Source of the DNA: Paenibacillus tianjinensis
GTDB taxonomy: Bacteria; Bacillota; Bacilli; Paenibacillales; Paenibacillaceae
DNA length: 64,000 bases
NCBI RefSeq assembly: GCF_017086365.1
Contig: NZ_CP070969.1
Location: 3,472,001 to 3,536,000 of the forward strand
Reading direction: 5' to 3'
Shown: in pieces, positions 28,097 to 37,660 of the stretch
Layout of the letters: each line of letters starts with the position of its first letter
How positions within the stretch are numbered: the first letter of the stretch is position 1
Position numbers and translations under genes: made by a program
The notes under the pieces: generated by a model
The model's database searches: none
What the model was told of the DNA's origin: nothing
The model's input: the letters and a program-made list of their open reading frames with translations, nothing else

Positions 28097-29548
28097 CTAC
28101 TCTATATCCTGCTGCATATGCTCTGTGATCAGTTCCTGCTTGCGCGTCCATACCTTTTCACTGAGATTCACACGATACACCTCAGGGTTCAGCTTGCGCA
28201 GATACTCCGGCCAGAATAAATCGAGCTGTTCCTGATGATAACTGCGGATTTCATCCAGTGCAGGCAGTTTGTACACCTGGAACCCGTTCACAAATATCGG
28301 CTCCAGCATCGGCAGTGCCTGATACTTGTCGACATTCTTGCGCAGATACGGATGCAGCGGATTGAACAGCTTAATCCGGGCACCATTGCGCGGAGCCGCC
28401 TCTTCCGGGAAGCTGATATAATCAGCCATCGCCTTTCCGTTGGTTCCAACAATGCGGAACACATCCTTTTTGCCGGGGGTCGAGACCTTCTCAGGGTTGG
28501 AGGAAATTTTGATCGTCGGAATCATTTCACCTGTAGGGGACTCAATTTCAACCAGCTTGTACACGCCGCCAAGGGAAGGCTGGTCGGAAGCGGTAATTAG
28601 CTGTGTGCCCACCCCCCAGGTATCAATGGCTGCACCCTGCAGCTTGAGGTCCATAATTGTATTCTCATCCAGATCATTGGAGGCGACAATCTTAACATAG
28701 TCCAGGCCGGCCTCATCCAGCATCTTGCGAGCCTGGATAGACAGATAGGCCAAGTCTCCGCTGTCGAGGCGGATACCGTTCATCCGCTTACCCTGTGCTT
28801 CCAGCTTCTTGGCAGTGTTGATGGCATGCGGCACACCGCTGCGCAATGTATCGAAGGTGTCCACCAGCAGGGTAACTCCGTCCGGCATTACTTTGGCATA
28901 GGCATCAAAGGCTTCCTGCTCACTTGCAAAGCTCTGTACCCAGGAGTGTGCATGCGTACCTTTGGTCGGAATGCCGAACATTCTGCCTGCCAGCATATTA
29001 GAGGTAGCATGAAAGCCGCCGATATAAGCCGCTCTTGCGCCCCATACCGCCGCATCCGCCTCCTGCGCTCTGCGGGTTCCGAATTCCAGCAGGATATCCC
29101 CGGGGGCCACCTGCTTGATCCGTGAGGCCTTGGTAGCAATCAGTGTCTGATAATTCATGAAATTCAGAATCGCCGTTTCGACAAGCTGCGCCTCCATGAT
29201 TGTGCCCTCAACACGTACGAGCGGCTCATCCGGAAAGACCAGCGCCCCTTCCTTCATGGAGTGGATCGTCCCCTGAAAATGAAACTGCAGCAGCTCCTCC
29301 AGAAACGCGGGCGCATAATTCTCTTCCTGCTCTGACAAATAGCGGACATCATCTTCAGTAAAGCGCAGGTCACTGATGTACTGGGCAATGCGCTCCAGAC
29401 CCGCAAATACGGCAAAGCCGTTTCCGAACGGCAGCTTGCGGAAGTAGGCTTCAAACACCGCTTTGCGTTTATGGGTTCCGTTCATCCAGTGTGCGTACAT
29501 CATATTGATCTGATATTTATCTGTATGTAGAGCAAGCTCTCTCCTCAA
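28097..29548 (-). CDS. pncB: Nicotinate phosphoribosyltransferase
   Basis: 483 residues from the TTG at 29548, chosen because AGGAG lies 8 nt before it and the protein then begins RRELALHTDKYQINMMYAHW as in the family. The longer reading overlaps pncA and is not supported. Family segments: LEFGTRRAQEADAA, GGFHATSNMLAG, GTHAHSW, NGIRLDSGDLAYLS. It makes nicotinate mononucleotide from nicotinate, ATP and PRPP, the second step of NAD salvage after PncA. The operon order nrtR-like, pncA, pncB supports the role. Confidence 0.92.
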   Translation of the reverse strand: MRRELALHTDKYQINMMYAHWMNGTHKRKAVFEAYFRKLPFGNGFAVFAGLERIAQYISDLRFTEDDVRYLSEQEENYAPAFLEELLQFHFQGTIHSMKEGALVFPDEPLVRVEGTIMEAQLVETAILNFMNYQTLIATKASRIKQVAPGDILLEFGTRRAQEADAAVWGARAAYIGGFHATSNMLAGRMFGIPTKGTHAHSWVQSFASEQEAFDAYAKVMPDGVTLLVDTFDTLRSGVPHAINTAKKLEAQGKRMNGIRLDSGDLAYLSIQARKMLDEAGLDYVKIVASNDLDENTIMDLKLQGAAIDTWGVGTQLITASDQPSLGGVYKLVEIESPTGEMIPTIKISSNPEKVSTPGKKDVFRIVGTNGKAMADYISFPEEAAPRNGARIKLFNPLHPYLRKNVDKYQALPMLEPIFVNGFQVYKLPALDEIRSYHQEQLDLFWPEYLRKLNPEVYRVNLSEKVWTRKQELITEHMQQDIE

Positions 29549-29570
29549 ATCCTCATCTCCTAAATTCTCT

Positions 29571-30113
29571 CTAGTGTGCGGTAACAACCTTCGCTCCAAG
29601 ACTGCCCTGGAAATGCCCCAATGCCCACTGGTGCCCGTCCGGATTAAAACTGGCCACAGCATCTTCGTGAATGATGAGATCAAACCCTTTGTTGTATGCA
29701 TCCACTGCTGTATGCAGCACACAGATATCGGTGCAGACGCCGATCAGATGCAGCTCCGTAATGCCGCGTTCGCGCAGCTTCAGCTCCAGATCGGTCCCGC
29801 TAAAGGCGCTGTAGCGCGTTTTGTCCATCCAATAGATCGAAGAGCGGTTGGCCTCATATACGTCTTTCAAAGTGCCGTACAATTCCCTGCCGCGGCTGCC
29901 CCGCAGATTATGCGGCGGAAACAGCTTGCTCTCCGGATGATACGGATCCTCTTCTTCATGGAGATCTACAGCCATTACCACGTAATCGCCGTTCTCTGCA
30001 AATTGCCTGGTCAATTCGCTGACTCTTGGTGCAATTTCAATCCCCGACTGCCCGACAGGCAGACTGCCGTCAATAAAATCATTGGTGAAATCTATCACGA
30101 TCAATGCCTTCAT
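29571..30113 (-). CDS. pncA: Nicotinamidase (isochorismatase-fold cysteine hydrolase)
   Basis: 180 residues. The catalytic triad is visible as Asp in VIDFTNDFIDG, Lys in WMDKTRYSAF and Cys in GVCTDICVLHTAVDAY. Metal ligands are in the DLHEEEDPYHPES region. It converts nicotinamide to nicotinate. AAGGAGG precedes the ATG. It lies between the NUDIX regulator gene and pncB, which uses its product. Confidence 0.9.
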   Translation of the reverse strand: MKALIVIDFTNDFIDGSLPVGQSGIEIAPRVSELTRQFAENGDYVVMAVDLHEEEDPYHPESKLFPPHNLRGSRGRELYGTLKDVYEANRSSIYWMDKTRYSAFSGTDLELKLRERGITELHLIGVCTDICVLHTAVDAYNKGFDLIIHEDAVASFNPDGHQWALGHFQGSLGAKVVTAH

Positions 30114-30168
30114 TATATTGGCCTCCTTAAGGCTGGGTTAAAAGGTTATCCGGCTACCAGACATCTTC

Positions 30169-30939
30169 CTACGTATAAATGGACAATAACGGCTCATGGT
30201 CTGTGAACATATACAGCTGTGCAGGGCGCTGGGAGTACTGGTTGGAGCTGACCGGATTGCCGGCTTCATCCCGTACTTCCTTTAATATACCCTGACGGCT
30301 GCGTGTTGAAGTAATTTTGCGGATAAAGTTCGGCTCTTTGAATTCCGGCACTACCGTCTGAATTACCTGATACAGCTCGCTTAATGTGAAATGCCGGGGC
30401 AGAAACTGCCGGGCAATCGTGGTCTGCAGCATCTGCTGCTGAATCCGCAGGTAGGCATCAGTGATGATGTCATGATGGTCAAAAGCCAGCTCCAGCTCCT
30501 CCAGAGCTTCCTGAAGTGTAAACAGCCCGACCTCGCCCGCGTCATCAGAGGCTTGTCTCTGCTCCAGCATCCATTCCTCCACCAGCGCAAAAAAAGCATG
30601 GCTGATAATCCACCCGCGCGGATCACGGCCAGGCGTACTGTATACACCAAGGTATTCCAAGTGCCCGCCGTCGACACCGGTTTCTTCTTTCAGCTCACGT
30701 GTTGCTGCATCATATATAGATTCATCCTCCTGGCAGAAACCGCCCGGTAAGGCCCACATCCCGGCACATGGCCATTTCTTCCGTCGGATCAGCATTACCT
30801 TTAGTTCGCGCAGGGGAAGTGTCTTGGTGACTGTCTTCCGTTCCCGCTTGGTCAAAGTGAACATCACAATGTCGGCCGGAACTCCGTCCGGGGTGCGGTA
30901 CTTTTTGGCGTTATAGTTTTGTTCCACGTTCTCGCTCAC
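30169..30939 (-). CDS. nrtR: NrtR-type NUDIX regulator of NAD metabolism
   Basis: 256 residues, GTG start. N-terminal NUDIX domain with an intact box GGFCQEDESIYDAATRELKE followed by ETG (residues about 66-88). The C-terminal winged helix (HFTLSELYQVIQTVVP, NFIRKI, QRPAQLYMFT) is the NrtR arrangement. NrtR proteins bind ADP-ribose with the NUDIX part and repress NAD genes. First gene of an operon with pncA and pncB. The intact box leaves hydrolase activity possible, so a plain NUDIX enzyme is the alternative. Confidence 0.78.
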   Translation of the reverse strand: MSENVEQNYNAKKYRTPDGVPADIVMFTLTKRERKTVTKTLPLRELKVMLIRRKKWPCAGMWALPGGFCQEDESIYDAATRELKEETGVDGGHLEYLGVYSTPGRDPRGWIISHAFFALVEEWMLEQRQASDDAGEVGLFTLQEALEELELAFDHHDIITDAYLRIQQQMLQTTIARQFLPRHFTLSELYQVIQTVVPEFKEPNFIRKITSTRSRQGILKEVRDEAGNPVSSNQYSQRPAQLYMFTDHEPLLSIYT

Positions 30940-31557: not shown

Positions 31558-33168
31558 TTAGAGAACCGCTGCGGCGGCTTCCGCCACATAGTCCCCTTTA
31601 ATGTACCAAGTTTTGGTATCTGTAATTCTGACCTGTACAAAGCTGCCGATCAGCTCCCGCGGACCTTCAAAATGAACCAGCTTGTTGGTTCTGGAGCGGC
31701 CGGAGAGCACGTGTGCGTTATTCTTGCTCTCTCCTTCCACCAGCACCTCTACCAGCTCACCCAGCATCCTGTCGTTACTGACCCGGCTCTGTTCCTTAAT
31801 CAGGTCATTCAGGCGCTTCAGACGCCCGTTCTTAACCTCCTGCGGAACATTATCCTCCATCGCGGCTGCCGGTGTTCCCTCGCGGGGAGAATAAATGAAG
31901 GTATACGCCATATCATAACCTACTTCGCGGACTAGCGACAGCGTCTCTTCAAATTGTTCCTCGGTTTCACCCGGGAAGCCGACGATAATATCGGTCGTCA
32001 GCACCGCATTCGGCACACTTGTTTTGATCTTGCGGACCAGGTCCAGATAAGCTTCCCTGGTATATTTACGGCTCATTTTCTTAAGCACCGCCGTACTTCC
32101 CGACTGCACCGGCAGATGAATATGCTCTGTCAGATTGCCGCCTTTGCCTAGCACTTCAATCAATCTATCGTCAAAATCACGGGGATGGGAGGTCATGAAG
32201 CGGATACGCGGAATATCAATCAGCCGCATGTCATCCATCAGATCCCCGAATGTATAGTCTATGTCAGTAAAATCTTTACCGTATGCGTTCACATTTTGCC
32301 CTAGCAGGGTCACTTCCTTGAAACCTAGACGGGCCAGCTCCCGCACTTCGGCAATTACATCCTCCGGCCGGCGGCTTCGCTCCTTGCCTCTGGTAAACGG
32401 AACGATACAATACGTACAGAACTTATCACAGCCGTACATAATATTAACCCAGGCGCGCATTCCCTCCCGCTTTTTCGGAAGATTCTCAATGATGTCGCCT
32501 TCCTTGGACCAGACTTCTACCACTAGCTCCTTACTGAACAGCGATTCCTTGATAATCTGCGGCAGCCGGTGAATATTATGTGTCCCGAAGATCATATCCA
32601 CGAAACCGTGTTTGGCCATGATCCGGTTAACGACACCTTCCTCCTGCGACATACAGCCGCATACACCCAGCAGCAGGCCCGGCTTCTCCAGCTTCAGCGT
32701 TTTGAGATGGCCCAGCTCACCGAATACTTTATCCTCTGCATTCTCACGGATGGCACAGGTATTCAGCAGAATAATATCCGCATCATTCCGGTCTTCCACC
32801 GGCAGATAGCCCATTTGCTCCAGCATACCCTTCATCGTCTCGGTGTCATGCTCATTCATCTGGCAGCCGTAAGTGGCAATAGAATAATAGTGCTGTTTAT
32901 GGCTGTTCATTTCACGGAACTGCTCCATAATCCGGACCGTTTCCGCATCATCAAATTGGATGACCTCAATCTCCTGCTTCCCTCTGCGCTTGCCTTCTTT
33001 ATAGTCGGGATTGGAATTAATCTGTACCGTCCGGCCTTTGATTCTATAAGTGGTCTTGCCTTCTTCTTCACTGATGACTTTGGCATCAGAAAAATCAAAA
33101 TATTTCGAGTAATCCTTCGAACCGCTCTTGCCGGATTTTAAGGCAGGTAGGTTATTCTCCATTGTCAT
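31558..33168 (-). CDS. miaB: tRNA-2-methylthio-N6-dimethylallyladenosine synthase
   Basis: 536 residues. The N-terminal UPF0004 domain carries three cluster Cys ([30 protein letters not shown]). The radical-SAM motif is [17 protein letters not shown]. The TRAM domain is at the C-terminus ([12 protein letters not shown] ... [11 protein letters not shown]). It methylthiolates i6A37 in tRNA. The 95-residue N-terminal extension rich in charged residues is common in bacilli. AAAGGACG precedes the ATG. Operon with ricA. Confidence 0.95.
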
Positions 33169-33322
33169 ATGTTCACGTCCTTTATGAATGAAGCATGATC
33201 AATAAAATCATCGCAAAATAATCTTGCTAATTAAAAATTATAGCATAAATAATGGAGCCTAATCCATCTGCCGTCTAGATGAGCCTCTACTTCCAGCCGG
33301 GAATTGAATCCGTATACAAATA

Positions 33323-33352
33323 AACCTCCCTACAGGAATCCGTAAGGAGGTT
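33323..33352. other. Hairpin in the miaB upstream spacer
   Basis: AACCTCC-C-TAC pairs with GTA-A-GGAGGTT around AGGAATCC. There is no T-run on either side, so a terminator role is doubtful. The remainder of 33169-33507 is AT-rich with no gene. Confidence 0.4.
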
Positions 33353-33507
33353 CTCATTAGAATTAATCAAGTTTATCTATCAACGGCGGAAGTACATACG
33401 CATATAGACTAGATCCAGCTTGGAATTTTTGACACAGATAAAAAACATCCTCATTTCTTGAAATCAACCCCCCATAAAATACACTTAGCCCAAGTTTAAC
33501 AGTATAG

Positions 33508-33537
33508 CGTTACATTTACGTTACACTTTTCTACAAT
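33508..33537 (+). promoter_or_regulatory. SARP-type promoter: two CGTTACA heptads and a -10
   Basis: CGTTACA at 33508-33514 and again at 33519-33525, with start points 11 bp apart, one helix turn. TACAAT (33532-33537) follows after 6 bp and there is no normal -35. SARP activators bind direct heptad repeats of 11-bp pitch placed just upstream of the -10. The gene downstream encodes a SARP domain, so positive autoregulation is the natural reading. Confidence 0.6.
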
Positions 33538-33622
33538 AATCAGCATATTATGATAAAATAACAACTTTTTTTCGCTATAATAACCATAAATAGACTATGC
33601 AGGCGTGCAGAGGAGTACAGAG

Positions 33623-35209
33623 ATGGAGTTTTTTTGGGAAAATGGGTTTAAACTTAATTACGAGTATGCTCAAGCCAAGCTGCCAGGCCCCGAAACTGAG
33701 ACACTTGTGCTTATTCACGGGATGGGGTTTGACCTCAGATGCTGGGACCGGATCATCCCCTATATGAAGGAAGATTATCATATCCTCAGATATGACTTCA
33801 GAGGACACGGATTAAGCGGGACTGGAGACATTGATCCAGCTATGCTGGCCTCCCTGTACACCGAACATTTGCATGCGCTTGTGCAGCATCTGGAGATTGG
33901 CCAGTTCCATATTCTCTCCCATGGAGCGGGGTGTATTATCGGGCTTTATTTCAGTAAAGCATATCCTGGGATGGTACGCAGCAATGTGTTGATCTCCCTT
34001 CCGCTCTTTAATTCAACCAATACGGCCTACAAATATGCGGATTACCGAAAAGATCTAATGAAGCATCAGTCCATGCGCACCTTAGCCGACCACGTGATAC
34101 CGAATGTGACCCTTTTCCGTCAAGGCAGCCCGGAGATTGACAAGCTGTATGAGGCTTTTTCCAGAGTAACCTTTGATGTCTATGTTGAACTGCTGGATTT
34201 CTTTGCCGGAGCGCACAGCGATATTATGGAAATGTTCAAACAACACACAGGCCCTACCCTGCTGTTGACTGGTGAACGTGACCCCATGTATCCGCCATAC
34301 CTATCCAGCCTGATTGCTTCAGCCAATCCCCATTGCCGTTTTATGACTATTTATAATTCGTCTAATATGTTGTTTTATGACCAGCCTGAGGAAACCTTCA
34401 AACAGATCAAGATGTTCTTCGCCAGTGAATGGAGCCACCGGGCACCTCTGGACCCTTTATTAATGGATTTGCATGCGGATTTCTTGGGAATGGTGGACAC
34501 TGATCAGGAGCAGCAGGTCATTGCCTCCCGTTTAAAGGTCGTCCTGCTGAAGCCATTTCAAGTGTTTGTGGATGATTCGGAGATCCTCAGCGGCTGGGGC
34601 AGAAGAAGCGCCAAGGAGCTGCTCATCTATCTGCTGCTGAATCCTGCCGTAACGAGGGACCAGCTGTGTGAGGACCTGTGGAAAGATATGGAGACGGTCA
34701 AAGCCCGGATTCAGCTCCGGGTCTGCCTGAATCATCTGAAGCAGCTGCTGAACAATGATGAGACGAAGCTCATTTACAGCAGCAACCAGCAAATCTCGCT
34801 GCAGGCTCCGGTGAATTGTGATTTGCTGACGCTGCTGGACCTCACTAAACAAGCGCTTGAGGAGACAAATCCGGAACAGAAAGACAAGCGGATTCAGGAA
34901 ATTTCCCGGCATATCCATGAAGATATGTTCCGCAATCTGAACCAGGAATGGAATTTGAATTTTAGAATGCGCCTGGAAATCCAGCTGAGTACACTGGTGT
35001 TTCATCAGGCGGATAGGCTGGCGGACCAGGGCAATTACACAGGCGCTATCGCCTGCCTGAAATATGTATTATTGTTCAATCCCGAAGATTATGATGCCTA
35101 CGAGCGGATTGCCCATCTCTGTGAGCAGAACAATCAGAAGCATGAGGCTAGAAAATGGCGCGCAAAAGTCGAGCAGCTGCAGCCTGCAAAAGGACAAACC
35201 ATGCTATAG
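33623..35209 (+). CDS. Catalytically dead alpha/beta-hydrolase fused to a SARP/BTAD activator
   Basis: 528 residues from the ATG at 33623, 7 nt after AGGAG. Residues 20-275 are an alpha/beta-hydrolase (LVLIHGMGFDLRCWD, YDFRGHGLSG). The nucleophile elbow, normally GHSxGG, reads SHGAGC, so Ser is replaced by Gly101. The acid D220 (GERDP) stays, but the His position is N248 (NSSNMLFYDQP). Residues about 303-385 are an OmpR-like winged helix (LKPFQVFVDDSEIL, RRSAKELLIYLLL, RDQLCEDLW). Residues 400-528 are a helical BTAD region. It is probably a ligand-sensing transcription activator. Convergent with a ketosynthase gene 15 bp away. Confidence 0.85.
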   Translation: MEFFWENGFKLNYEYAQAKLPGPETETLVLIHGMGFDLRCWDRIIPYMKEDYHILRYDFRGHGLSGTGDIDPAMLASLYTEHLHALVQHLEIGQFHILSHGAGCIIGLYFSKAYPGMVRSNVLISLPLFNSTNTAYKYADYRKDLMKHQSMRTLADHVIPNVTLFRQGSPEIDKLYEAFSRVTFDVYVELLDFFAGAHSDIMEMFKQHTGPTLLLTGERDPMYPPYLSSLIASANPHCRFMTIYNSSNMLFYDQPEETFKQIKMFFASEWSHRAPLDPLLMDLHADFLGMVDTDQEQQVIASRLKVVLLKPFQVFVDDSEILSGWGRRSAKELLIYLLLNPAVTRDQLCEDLWKDMETVKARIQLRVCLNHLKQLLNNDETKLIYSSNQQISLQAPVNCDLLTLLDLTKQALEETNPEQKDKRIQEISRHIHEDMFRNLNQEWNLNFRMRLEIQLSTLVFHQADRLADQGNYTGAIACLKYVLLFNPEDYDAYERIAHLCEQNNQKHEARKWRAKVEQLQPAKGQTML

Positions 35210-35224
35210 AACACGGCTGCACCT

Positions 35225-36418
35225 TTAACTCTTGGTTAAATATACAGCGGCATTATTACCTCCGTAACCATGAGAAGTGATAAGCACTTTTGCGGAGGGT
35301 TTCAACAGGTTCTCCGTAATTAGCGGCAGATGCTCAAACCCCCATTGATCGGTGCGGATTGTACGGGGGACAAACTGATGCTGAAATCCAAGCAGCGAAG
35401 CAATGATCTGCGCCAGTCCGCTTGCGCTAAACGGATGGCCGATCAGTCCTTTGATTGAGGTTAAGGGAACACCGTGCCCAAAGAGATCCCGCGAGACAAG
35501 TTCTTCGATACTGTCATTGGCGGCATACCCCATCGCCTGGCTGTTATAATAATCCGGGATTCTTTGCCCCAGCACTCTGCTCACAGCTTGCTTCATGCTG
35601 CTGCCTGTCCGATCATGCCCATTGATGGATTCAGTGTCATTATTCGTTACTACGGCATCTATATATCCGTAAATAGTTGCCTTACGGGCCAATGCATGTT
35701 CTTCCGTCTCCAGAATCAGGCTTGCCGCTCCTTCCGATAACAGGAAGCCTTTGCTTCTTTTGCTAAAGGGAGAACCTGCATATTCTGTCTGCTGATTAAA
35801 CGGCAGAGCTCTGATCTTGCCGAATCCAAATACGGTTACTTTGTTATTGCTGCTGTCCGCCGCACCGACTATAGCGGTATTGATCTTGCCGTTCTGCAAA
35901 TACATCATTGCATCCTCCACAGCCTCCACTCCGGCGGTGCAGCCCGTGGTCACCGTTTTGGTTATCCCCTTCAAGTGAAAAAAACTGGAGACCGAAGCAG
36001 CGAGACTATGATAATGCACCAGTCCGCAGCAATAGACCGGCATATCTCTGAAATGATCTGCCGATGAAATCCGGACCATTTCTTCCAGCGGCGTGGTTCC
36101 TCCCATTGTTGTCCCCATAAATATACCAGTTGAAGTCCCGTTGTCCTCCAAATCCAGATCTGCCATCTCAAGTGCTTCCGAGGTTGTACTGATAGCCAGT
36201 TTGGCGATCCTGGGTAATGCCCTGTAGTCCCTGCCCTCCAGTTCTCCAAGTCCCTTTACAATCTCGCCGATCAGTAAATCCTCCCGGTTTGGGGTAATTT
36301 CGTTTCTTAATGAAAACTTATACTCTCCGCTGATCAGATGATGAAGCAATTCTTCGTTATTCTCGCCATTCGGAACCTTCACTCCGAAACCGGTAATCAC
36401 TATACGCTTGCTCATCAT
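35225..36418 (-). CDS. Stand-alone beta-ketoacyl synthase with an altered active site
   Basis: About 397 residues from the ATG at 36418 (four ATG/ATA codons in a row; this one has AAAAGG 6 nt before it). FabF-like fold. The nucleophile is C160 (TVTTGCTAGVEA). The second His is H328 (SIKGLIGHPFSASG) with K323. At the first His, where FabF reads AHGTSTPLND, this protein reads SQAMGYAAND, so the residue is Q294. No acyl carrier protein, acyltransferase or reductase is nearby. It may be an inactive or specialised condensing enzyme rather than a fatty-acid housekeeping KAS. Confidence 0.85.
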   Translation of the reverse strand: MMSKRIVITGFGVKVPNGENNEELLHHLISGEYKFSLRNEITPNREDLLIGEIVKGLGELEGRDYRALPRIAKLAISTTSEALEMADLDLEDNGTSTGIFMGTTMGGTTPLEEMVRISSADHFRDMPVYCCGLVHYHSLAASVSSFFHLKGITKTVTTGCTAGVEAVEDAMMYLQNGKINTAIVGAADSSNNKVTVFGFGKIRALPFNQQTEYAGSPFSKRSKGFLLSEGAASLILETEEHALARKATIYGYIDAVVTNNDTESINGHDRTGSSMKQAVSRVLGQRIPDYYNSQAMGYAANDSIEELVSRDLFGHGVPLTSIKGLIGHPFSASGLAQIIASLLGFQHQFVPRTIRTDQWGFEHLPLITENLLKPSAKVLITSHGYGGNNAAVYLTKS

Positions 36419-36451
36419 TATCATCCTTTTCGTTTTAATTATTTAGATGAC

Positions 36452-36528
36452 ACAAAGAGGCTTCCCCCTGCATGCGTGTTTTGGCTTCAGCTTGCCAAAA
36501 CTCACCACTTGGTGAAAGCCCTCTTTGT
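36452..36528. other. Compact three-stem structured segment upstream of the ketosynthase
   Basis: Outer stem ACAAAGAGGCTT (36452-36463) with AAGCC-C-TCTTTGT (36516-36528). Inside lie GTTTTGGC/GCCAAAAC (36478-36501, 8-nt loop) and TCACC/GGTGA (36502-36515, 4-nt loop). TTTAGATGA flanks it as a direct repeat at 36442-36450 and 36549-36557. No T-run follows, so it is not a plain terminator. It could be a 5' leader RNA of the ketosynthase or a small inserted element. Strand is undecided. Confidence 0.5.
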
Positions 36529-36565
36529 AAGAAAGTATAGTTATTAGCTTTAGATGAAATTTGAC

Positions 36566-37660
36566 TTAGCTCAACGTCCGGGTTGCCTCTGAGGTAAACG
36601 GAATAATCTCATCTGTCCGTCCGCTCTGCACTTTGGCCGGCCAGGCAGGATCGCTGATCAGTGCTCTGCCCACAGCAACCAGATCGAATTCCGCCTTTTC
36701 CAGTCTTTCTAGCAGACGGTCAATGTTATCTTCCTCATTCTGTTCGGTCACTCTACCCGTAAATTCACTGTTCAGTCCCACTGACCCTACAGTAATTGTT
36801 GGCTTGCCGGTAATTTTCTTGGTCCAGCCGGCCAGATTCAGCTCGGAGCCTTCAAATTCCGGCAGCCAGAAGCGGCGGGTAGAGCAGTGGAAAATATCAA
36901 CGCCGGCATTGCTGAGCGGCGTAAGGAACCGGGCCAGCTCTTCAGGAGTCTGGGCCAGCTTGGCCGAATAATCTCCGCTCTTCCACTGCGAGAAGCGCAG
37001 CACAATCGGGAAATCGGGGCCGACTGCTCGGCGGCAGGCGTCAATGACCTCGACGGCAAAGGTAGTCCGGGCTTCCAGATCACCGCCGTACTCATCGGTA
37101 CGCTTATTGGTTTTCTCCCAGAAGAACTGGTCGATTAGATAACCATGGGCACCATGCAGCTCAATTCCATCGAAGCCAATCCTTTTGGCATCCGCCGCAG
37201 CCTGGGCAAACGCAGCAACAATCCCGTCAATTTCCTGCTGTGTCATCGGCTCTGTCACCTGTTCACCGGCCAGGTTCAGCCCGGATGGGCCAATCGGCAG
37301 CGCTTCAGCGTTCGGGAGCTCCCCAATGGAGCGGGCCATGCCGACATGCCAGAGCTGCGGAATGATTTTGCCGCCGGCTGCATGTACTTCTGCCACCACA
37401 TTCGCCCAACCTGCAAGAGCAGCTTCACCATGAAAATTCGGAATGTTCTGATGGCTGACTGCCGAAGGATGGTTGATAGCTGTCCCTTCGGTGATGATCA
37501 GTCCCACCCCACCCTCCGCACGTCTGCGGTAATAAGCGGCTACATCACTACCCGGTACCCCATCCGGTGAAAAGACGCGGGTCATCGGGGCCATAACAAT
37601 TCTATTGGCGAGCGAAAGTGAGCCTGCCTGAAAGGGAGTAAACAATAAATCTGTATTCAT
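36566..37660 (-). CDS. Old-yellow-enzyme family NADH:flavin oxidoreductase
   Basis: 364 residues. FMN-barrel motifs: NRIVMAPMTRVF, QLWHVGMARS, GIELHGAHGYLIDQFFWEKTNKRTDEYGG split over 172-200, and GRALISDPAW near the C-terminus. The active-site pair His/His within HGAHGYL is conserved. Such enzymes reduce activated alkenes with NAD(P)H; the natural substrate is usually unknown. Single gene between the structured segment and the rhamnose region. Confidence 0.9.
   Translation of the reverse strand: MNTDLLFTPFQAGSLSLANRIVMAPMTRVFSPDGVPGSDVAAYYRRRAEGGVGLIITEGTAINHPSAVSHQNIPNFHGEAALAGWANVVAEVHAAGGKIIPQLWHVGMARSIGELPNAEALPIGPSGLNLAGEQVTEPMTQQEIDGIVAAFAQAAADAKRIGFDGIELHGAHGYLIDQFFWEKTNKRTDEYGGDLEARTTFAVEVIDACRRAVGPDFPIVLRFSQWKSGDYSAKLAQTPEELARFLTPLSNAGVDIFHCSTRRFWLPEFEGSELNLAGWTKKITGKPTITVGSVGLNSEFTGRVTEQNEEDNIDRLLERLEKAEFDLVAVGRALISDPAWPAKVQSGRTDEIIPFTSEATRTLS

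Follow-up and report, generated by a model that had tools for sequence, protein, structure and literature searches.

This work concerns a gene of Paenibacillus tianjinensis that lies in a stretch of 64,000 nucleotides (the window; positions 3472001-3536000 of a single-contig genome of 6.27 Mb) and that appears to join, in one polypeptide, an alpha/beta-hydrolase domain without the catalytic Ser and His to a unit of the Streptomyces antibiotic regulatory protein (SARP) type. Taking the evidence together, we consider it probable that the product is a non-catalytic, one-component transcription regulator that acts on an operator in front of its own gene. The locus contains the following features, numbered from the first nucleotide of the window.

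33623-35209, plus strand: regulator gene, pseudo-alpha/beta-hydrolase plus SARP unit
33623-34432, plus strand: non-catalytic alpha/beta-hydrolase domain, residues 1-270
33917-33931, plus strand: former nucleophile elbow SHGAG, residues 99-103, with Gly101 at the place of Ser
34004-34246, plus strand: cap (lid), about residues 128-208, four predicted helices
34280-34282, plus strand: Asp220, the retained acid of the former triad
34364-34366, plus strand: Asn248, at the place of the catalytic His
34523-35188, plus strand: SARP unit (winged helix and all-helical activation domain), about residues 301-522
34694-34747, plus strand: predicted recognition helix of the winged helix, residues 358-375, with Arg362 (helix 59-76 of a C-terminal model that starts at residue 300)
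31558-33168, minus strand: miaB-like gene, divergent (named from a by-eye reading of its translation)
35225-36424, minus strand: beta-ketoacyl-synthase-like protein of 399 amino acids, convergent

The regulator gene is one intact frame of 528 codons, from an ATG at 33623 to a stop codon ending at 35209. A longer frame from a GTG at 33605, offered by the open reading frame finder, is not supported because the alignments of orthologues begin at the ATG. Pfam matched Abhydrolase_6 to residues 28-259 (E 1.5e-16), and in the same protein Trans_reg_C at residues 332-384 and tetratricopeptide repeats at about residues 462-512 both fell under the Pfam cut-offs. The enzyme family that scored best for the N-terminal domain was PcaD (TIGR02427), with 88 bits against a cut-off of 255.85 bits. 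The linker between the hydrolase domain and the SARP unit is predicted with low confidence.

The hydrolase domain and the SARP unit

A sequence-only reading of this DNA had proposed that Gly101 stands for the nucleophile and Asn248 for the His, with Asp220 kept, and alignment with 24 ordinary alpha/beta-hydrolases confirmed all three assignments. The elbow reads 98-LSHGAGC-104, the motif GERDP holds Asp220 and 245-NSSNM-249 holds Asn248. The controls (20 weak matches from the order-level search and four hydrolases of the same genome) have Ser at column 101 in 24 of 24 cases and His at column 248 in 23; the odd control, L005, has Ser, Asn and Tyr, and the other 23 have Ser together with His. 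Among 64 family representatives the pattern is reversed. Position 101 is Gly in 49, Ser in four, Asp in four, Ala in three and Asn, Thr, Glu or Gln in one each, and position 248 is Asn in 55, Ser in three, Tyr in three and Phe, His or Gln in one each, while position 220 is Asp in 63 and Glu in one. Ser101 and His248 occur together in none of the 64. Most relatives share the Gly and Asn and, since homologues with a mostly intact triad were not seen, the outcome that the sequence-only reading had itself named as fatal did not arise. As judged from these alignments, the catalytic pair of Ser and His is lost across the family, as a rule.

The 64 rows comprise the window protein and 63 of 82 prepared candidates, from which 19 were dropped as near-duplicates, fragments or odd rows; of these 19, L068 and L124 have Ser101 with Asn248 and L128 has Gly101 with His, and none has both Ser and His. 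Three partial copies (L023, L052 and L074) had been excluded earlier, and other fragments (L020, L021 and L121 among them) never entered, nor did many order-level matches. Two rows (L028 and L077) are hydrolase-only. The corresponding C-terminal alignment holds 64 of 78 prepared sequences.

H100, G101, G103, D220 and N248 are invariant in 18 aligned sequences of the genus. Across the 64 rows, M1, H32, G33, G35, D58, G61, G63, H100, G103, P211, D220 and P255 are at least 90% conserved, G217 is invariant and His100 is present in 59. A relocated catalytic pair was considered and rejected, as H32 and H100 are the only Ser or His residues that reach 90% in the 64-row alignment; S65, S125, S150 and S247 do not vary among the 18 rows of the genus alignment, and their geometry, which was not examined, limits the negative for Ser. 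The fold itself persists in the predicted model, which by structure comparison retains the hydrolase core and a four-helix cap (residues 132-148, 151-161, 170-180 and 184-207), and its structure matches include 7dq9, 2xua and 4etw. Thus, by Pfam and by predicted model, an alpha/beta-hydrolase fold with a lid is present, and a complete catalytic triad is absent (Gly101, Asp220, Asn248).

The ratio of non-synonymous to synonymous substitution rates (dN/dS) for the whole gene is 0.115-0.211 against the four closest orthologues (L006-L009). In the same pairs it is 0.103-0.199 for residues 1-270 and 0.10-0.22 for the SARP part, and for the cap 0.015-0.092, below that of the whole hydrolase domain in all four. 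The pairs with the more distant L010 and L014 were not used because synonymous change was near or beyond saturation.

The SARP assignment of the C-terminal half is weak by sequence and strong by predicted fold. At E<=1e-3, Pfam recognized BTAD in only two of 64 family members and Trans_reg_C in 18. The predicted fold is an OmpR-type winged helix followed by an all-helical BTA/BTAD domain, which upholds the earlier placing of a SARP unit in the same polypeptide, and structure alignments to AfsR/EmbR-type proteins show 17-19% sequence identity.

SARPs are known mainly as antibiotic activators of actinomycetes. The sequence-only reading had called them mainly known from actinomycetes; this needs qualifying, as SARP-like units are not rare in the order of P. 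tianjinensis. SARP profile matches occur in 88 of 119 genomes of that order, which we take to be Paenibacillales, at E<=1e-10, 27 with and 61 without a match at the strength of the fusion family. As such units are common, the unusual part is the attached pseudohydrolase. The weaker SARP-profile matches listed lie mostly in frames of about 340-460 amino acids, with some of about 580-600 and some of about 1,030-1,190.

Repeats upstream of the regulator gene

The spacer between the miaB-like gene and the regulator gene contains two further features.

33508-33535, plus strand: putative operator, conserved upstream repeats CGTTACA tttA CGTTACA (33508-33525) followed by TTCTACA (33529-33535)
33530-33559, plus strand: promoter-like hexamers TCTACA-18-TAAAAT, a consensus match only; the third repeat overlaps the -35-like hexamer

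The block CGTTACATTTACGTTACACTTTTCTACA at 33508-33535 is conserved in all 13 aligned loci, one of which (L088) has a single changed base in the first unit, and the repeat periods of the window site are 11 and 10. In the window, CGTTACA-N4-CGTTACA at no more than two mismatches was found once, against 0.17 expected. In its own genome the site at 33508 is the only exact copy and the only one at up to one mismatch, and a search with SRTTACANNNNSRTTACA found only one other site, at G000:C1:1394906. We queried 15 of the 20 genomes of the genus that have the regulator (leaving out G035, G062, G065, G075 and G090), and a site at up to one mismatch lies shortly before the gene in all 15, exact in 13; in G090 the regulator locus (L031) also has an exact site. 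Among the 80 genomes of the genus without the regulator, 15 were queried and one has an exact site.

The core of the repeats extends well beyond the genus. Of 69 regulators, 37 have an exact TTACA-N6-TTACA in the 260 bp upstream, always in the direction of the gene, and in the same loci each spacer of 2-5 or 7-15 between TTACA pairs occurs not at all or once, on either strand. The 69 loci are those with fetched flanks and include close relatives, so that 27 of the upstream sites are non-redundant; L149, a second copy of L087, was dropped. Both strands together hold 49 such sites, and the 12 that are not directly upstream all lie outside predicted genes. Ten of these 12 are in loci without an upstream site (L095, L096, L145, L159, L161, L162, L163, L172, L176 and L185), where they precede a divergent gene, the leading gene of the operon or the next co-directional gene, or lie further upstream; the remaining two are second sites in L144 and L181. 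Six more loci (L088, L091, L146, L168, L173 and L189) have an upstream site with one mismatch. The triple-repeat score against shuffles is weak for most single loci and the signal emerged on comparison of the unit across loci, so the motif was chosen after inspection of these same loci.

This arrangement can be compared with that of known SARP sites. According to an excerpt of a structural paper on AfsR, the direct repeats of SARP promoters are spaced at 11 or 22 bp, and 8 bp separate the 3' repeat from the -10 box (PMC10936776). An excerpt of a review gives the AfsR repeat as CGTT(T/C)ATCGNN and describes sites of three heptamers separated by 4 nt, as well as one that consists of two 10-bp repeats (PMC10972967). 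In our loci no fixed distance to a -10 box was found among the 27 non-redundant sites, and promoter-pattern matches in the region number 4, against 2.1 in shuffles.

The base before the first TTACA varies with residue 362 of the predicted recognition helix: G is found with Arg (10), Leu (7) and Met (7), and A with Gln (9) and Ser (3), the exception being L151, which has Ser with G. Many family members also have a conserved block, approximately C[CT]AAA, at -12 to -8, a helical turn ahead of the first TTACA, which may be a further, degenerate repeat.

Distribution and neighbouring genes

Relatives were found in 20 of 100 genomes of the genus (E<=1e-20), in 54 of 394 genomes and 8 of 19 genera of the family (E<=1e-25), in 95 of 392 genomes of the order (E<=1e-20) and in 14 of 398 genomes of the class (E<=1e-30); beyond the class, two of 299 genomes in a phylum sample gave a match at E<=1e-25, and each of the two belongs to the genus of the window. 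Among the named genomes scanned, relatives were also present in Paenibacillus ihuae, P. auburnensis and an uncultured Paenibacillus, of which the P. ihuae and P. auburnensis copies are already counted in the genus set. Some matches consist of the hydrolase alone or are fragments, and the final 30 rows of the order search (E 1.2e-24 and weaker) resemble plain hydrolases; the 20 of these that were fetched are all Ser-Asp-His.

Several copies differ in form. L077, L078, L079 and L080 (frame from 1492, 301 amino acids), from species of one other genus, resemble stand-alone dead hydrolases, with GHGFG and with Asn at the place of His; a SARP unit was not found in their fetched flanks of about 1.5 kb, and they may be a free-standing form. 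L028 has, from 2410 onwards, a dead hydrolase of about 320 amino acids followed by a weak SARP remnant; its genome (G060) contains a full-length copy as well. Split or truncated copies occur at G075:C1:3175580-3178560 (pieces about 1.4 kb apart), at contig ends in G009 (C126 and C20) and in L023, L052, L074 and L075. L089 (G093) has two adjoining regulator copies, 57% and 51% identical to the window protein.

The order of neighbours seen in the window is common to 14 loci, some with gaps. Only one acyl-chemistry gene, the ketosynthase-like one, adjoins the regulator, and by-eye reading of the translations suggests miaB, an oxidoreductase and rhamnose genes for the other neighbours. The ketosynthase-like gene was found in 15 of 100 genomes of the genus at E<=1e-60, all 15 within the 20 that have the regulator; in G017 the match covers residues 96-398 only and is distant from the regulator. 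Shared descent of one locus accounts for much of this co-occurrence, which is thus a lead and not a proof. When aligned with the 3-oxoacyl-ACP synthase 2 (ACP, acyl carrier protein) of 4ls5, the protein keeps the Cys and the second His, and the His of NAHGTST is replaced by Gln (NSQA), at positions that we take to be catalytic; Cys-Gln-His stands in place of Cys-His-His in all 13 copies compared. With changed active sites in both, the regulator and its neighbour both resemble altered enzymes. The ketosynthase-like gene was rejected as a direct target, as there is no copy of the operator in front of it.

Elsewhere in the window, inverted repeats seen by eye at 36425-36565, between the oxidoreductase-like and ketosynthase-like genes, are perhaps a terminator of the former, and 28097-30939 holds what looks, from by-eye reading of the translations, like an NAD-salvage set (phosphoribosyltransferase, nicotinamidase-like protein and Nudix-type regulator). 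An Rfam-type RNA element was not found at 33000-37000 at E<=1.

In 12 of 68 distinct loci scanned, a gene of at least 900 amino acids adjoins the regulator (L098, L101, L141, L142, L145, L152, L153, L155, L156, L157, L160 and L179). In L101 it encodes a competence-type membrane protein. Pfam was run on the giant neighbours in seven of the other eleven loci. Those of L098, L141 and L160 have S-layer homology domains, those of L142 and L179 carboxypeptidase-regulatory and immunoglobulin (Ig)-like domains, and that of L152 a fibronectin domain; in L145 a subtilase flanks the regulator on one side, and Ig-like and Cry-domain-IV-like domains occur on the opposite side. A second giant neighbour in L141 matched no Pfam family. 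In eight of the eleven (L098, L141, L142, L152, L153, L155, L156 and L179) the repeats are found in the intergenic spacer between the regulator and a divergent giant gene, in L145 they precede the downstream giant gene, and in L157 and L160 none were found. Long flagellins lie two predicted genes from the regulator in L148 and L164, and the neighbours in other loci include transporters, a LacI-type regulator and peptidases. Given this variety between loci, no single function fits all.

A probable regulator with a possible receptor domain

How might such a protein work? In the reading that we favour, the SARP unit would occupy the TTACA repeats as two adjacent copies, in the manner of AfsR on its box, and would so control transcription of its own gene, perhaps as an activator. 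In some relatives it would also control the gene across the shared repeats, several times one for a giant surface-type protein. The dead hydrolase domain is probably the sensor. On balance we lean, by a little, towards a ligand step in which the covered pocket of this domain takes up a small molecule that gates the SARP unit. Such a ligand may be acyl-, ester- or lactone-like and held without cleavage, and movement of the lid may alter dimerization of the SARP unit or its contact with RNA polymerase; in the clade of the window, the ketosynthase-like protein may make or modify the signal.

Several observations weigh against this reading. In the genome of P. tianjinensis there are 19 sites at up to two mismatches (18 besides the operator), fewer than the 41 for a reversed control; there is no second strong site, and a larger regulon in this genome was accordingly rejected. 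At up to one mismatch, 10 of the 15 queried genomes of the genus that lack the regulator have some site, which is about the level of the reversed control, so that only exact sites discriminate. No site, whether exact in the fetched locus or with one mismatch in the upstream 260 bp, was found in 16 of the 69 loci, and one of these, L092 (G065), is a regulator of the same genus. The -10 box is ambiguous, since the hexamer 8 bp past TTCTACA is CATATT, a weak match, and the better TAAAAT follows at a distance of 18 bp. In normalized mutual information with either half-site, residue 362 comes third among 528 columns, although some of the higher columns are gap-rich; all the A sites fall within one 26-row part of the tree, so kinship alone may explain part of the match between residue and base. 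The ketosynthase-like partner is absent from five of the 20 regulator genomes (G035, G062, G065, G075 and G088), of which G088 is in the clade of the window and G075 has regulator pieces 52-53% identical. Finally, the full-length predicted model has a predicted template modelling score of only 0.51 and does not fix the mutual placement of the two halves.

The main rival to small-molecule sensing departs from our reading in the sensing step only. The dead hydrolase domain could be a protein-binding or dimerizing scaffold, on which a docked partner, such as an acyl carrier protein, an enzyme or a kinase, switches the SARP unit. The positions conserved at 90% or more across the 64 rows are mostly structural, and the structure list includes 4etw, an enzyme of the same fold (presumably BioH) in complex with its acyl-carrier-protein substrate. 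Large SARPs, according to an excerpt of PMC10936776, use accessory domains to modulate the SARP unit. However, in each of the four close pairs the cap has a lower dN/dS than the hydrolase domain as a whole, and most of the family retains the former active-site Asp and the Asn, which would be superfluous in a mere surface scaffold. We take this alternative seriously, while thinking it unlikely.

A second alternative, which we judge improbable, is that the TTACA repeats serve another regulator, such as a PhoP-type response regulator, and that the fusion protein has its targets elsewhere. Direct repeats with a spacing of about 11 bp are bound by OmpR-type regulators as well. Furthermore, AfsR and PhoP share a site in Streptomyces, as stated in an excerpt of PMC10972967. 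Yet the site goes with the regulator gene across several families of the class, at unrelated chromosomal places, and the flanks of its half-sites vary with the recognition helix of the fusion protein. Exact sites in one of 15 regulator-less genomes, and one in its own genome, are also unlike the pattern of a global regulator, which may nevertheless use weaker sites.

It is more improbable still that the domain is both regulator and enzyme, catalysing through other residues (Asp220 with His100) or through cofactor-free chemistry. Asp220 is near-invariant and His100 widespread, and plant carboxylesterase-like cyclases keep the fold with changed chemistry, according to an excerpt of PMC10873640, but His32 and His100 are ordinary positions too (the HG and GHS motifs, in most controls) and the family alignment shows no new Ser, Cys or His conserved to 90%. 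That a decaying enzyme is attached to a regulator is scarcely credible: split or truncated copies do occur in the genus (G009, at contig ends, G075 and G035) and in the family (G348, G305 and G370), but chance or decay is excluded for the gene in the window because most of the family retains the Gly and Asn despite great divergence, the controls differ and dN/dS is low (0.12-0.21).

Our reading of a non-catalytic regulator recalls several known systems, among the closest being D14/DAD2 and KAI2 (the strigolactone and karrikin receptors) and RsbQ of Bacillus. PcaD, a 3-oxoadipate enol-lactonase, and feruloyl esterase relatives are the best-scoring enzyme families, by profile (TIGR02427) and by structure (7dq9 and 2xua); the catalytic Ser and His of such enzymes are absent here. 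The sequence-only reading had compared the domain with the plant receptors GID1 and, in part, D14. DAD2/D14 keeps the full triad, so of these two only GID1 is a parallel, as a hydrolase-fold protein that serves as a receptor without catalysis; GID1 has lost the His and keeps Ser and Asp as hormone contacts, as described in an excerpt of PMC3531792, whereas here, judging by the alignments, Ser and His are lost, with Asp and Asn left in place. DELLA proteins mediate the action of GID1, and here the output would lie within the same chain; the kinship considered is that of the superfamily. In AfsR of Streptomyces the SARP unit is N-terminal and is followed by nucleotide-binding and tetratricopeptide repeat parts (excerpt of PMC10936776), and in EmbR of Mycobacterium, going by the ranges and titles of the structure matches, it is likewise N-terminal, ahead of a phosphopeptide-binding part; here it is C-terminal, behind the dead hydrolase. 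The fullest version of our reading is a single-chain bacterial counterpart of GID1, in which an acyl or lactone signal from the Cys-Gln-His ketosynthase-like neighbour drives the SARP unit, in a family of intracellular, hormone-like receptors that governs surface proteins and other genes across the order and in other families of the class; we offer this as speculation and think it doubtful in its entirety.

SARPs and hydrolase-fold receptors are each known, and what appears to be new is the fusion of a dead hydrolase to a SARP unit, its spread and its putative operator, for none of which a published description was found among the open-licence papers listed (titles and beginnings of abstracts). 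To our knowledge, signal sensing by the accessory domains of SARPs is a mostly open matter. Here, in a family outside the actinomycetes, the putative sensor is a recognizable enzyme fold minus its chemistry, placed on a SARP whose likely DNA site can be read from the sequence, and the receptor hypothesis can therefore be tested with one protein and one short DNA. If true, this would be an independent case of the step from enzyme to receptor that is known from plant hormones, and ligand-controlled promoter parts might come from the family.
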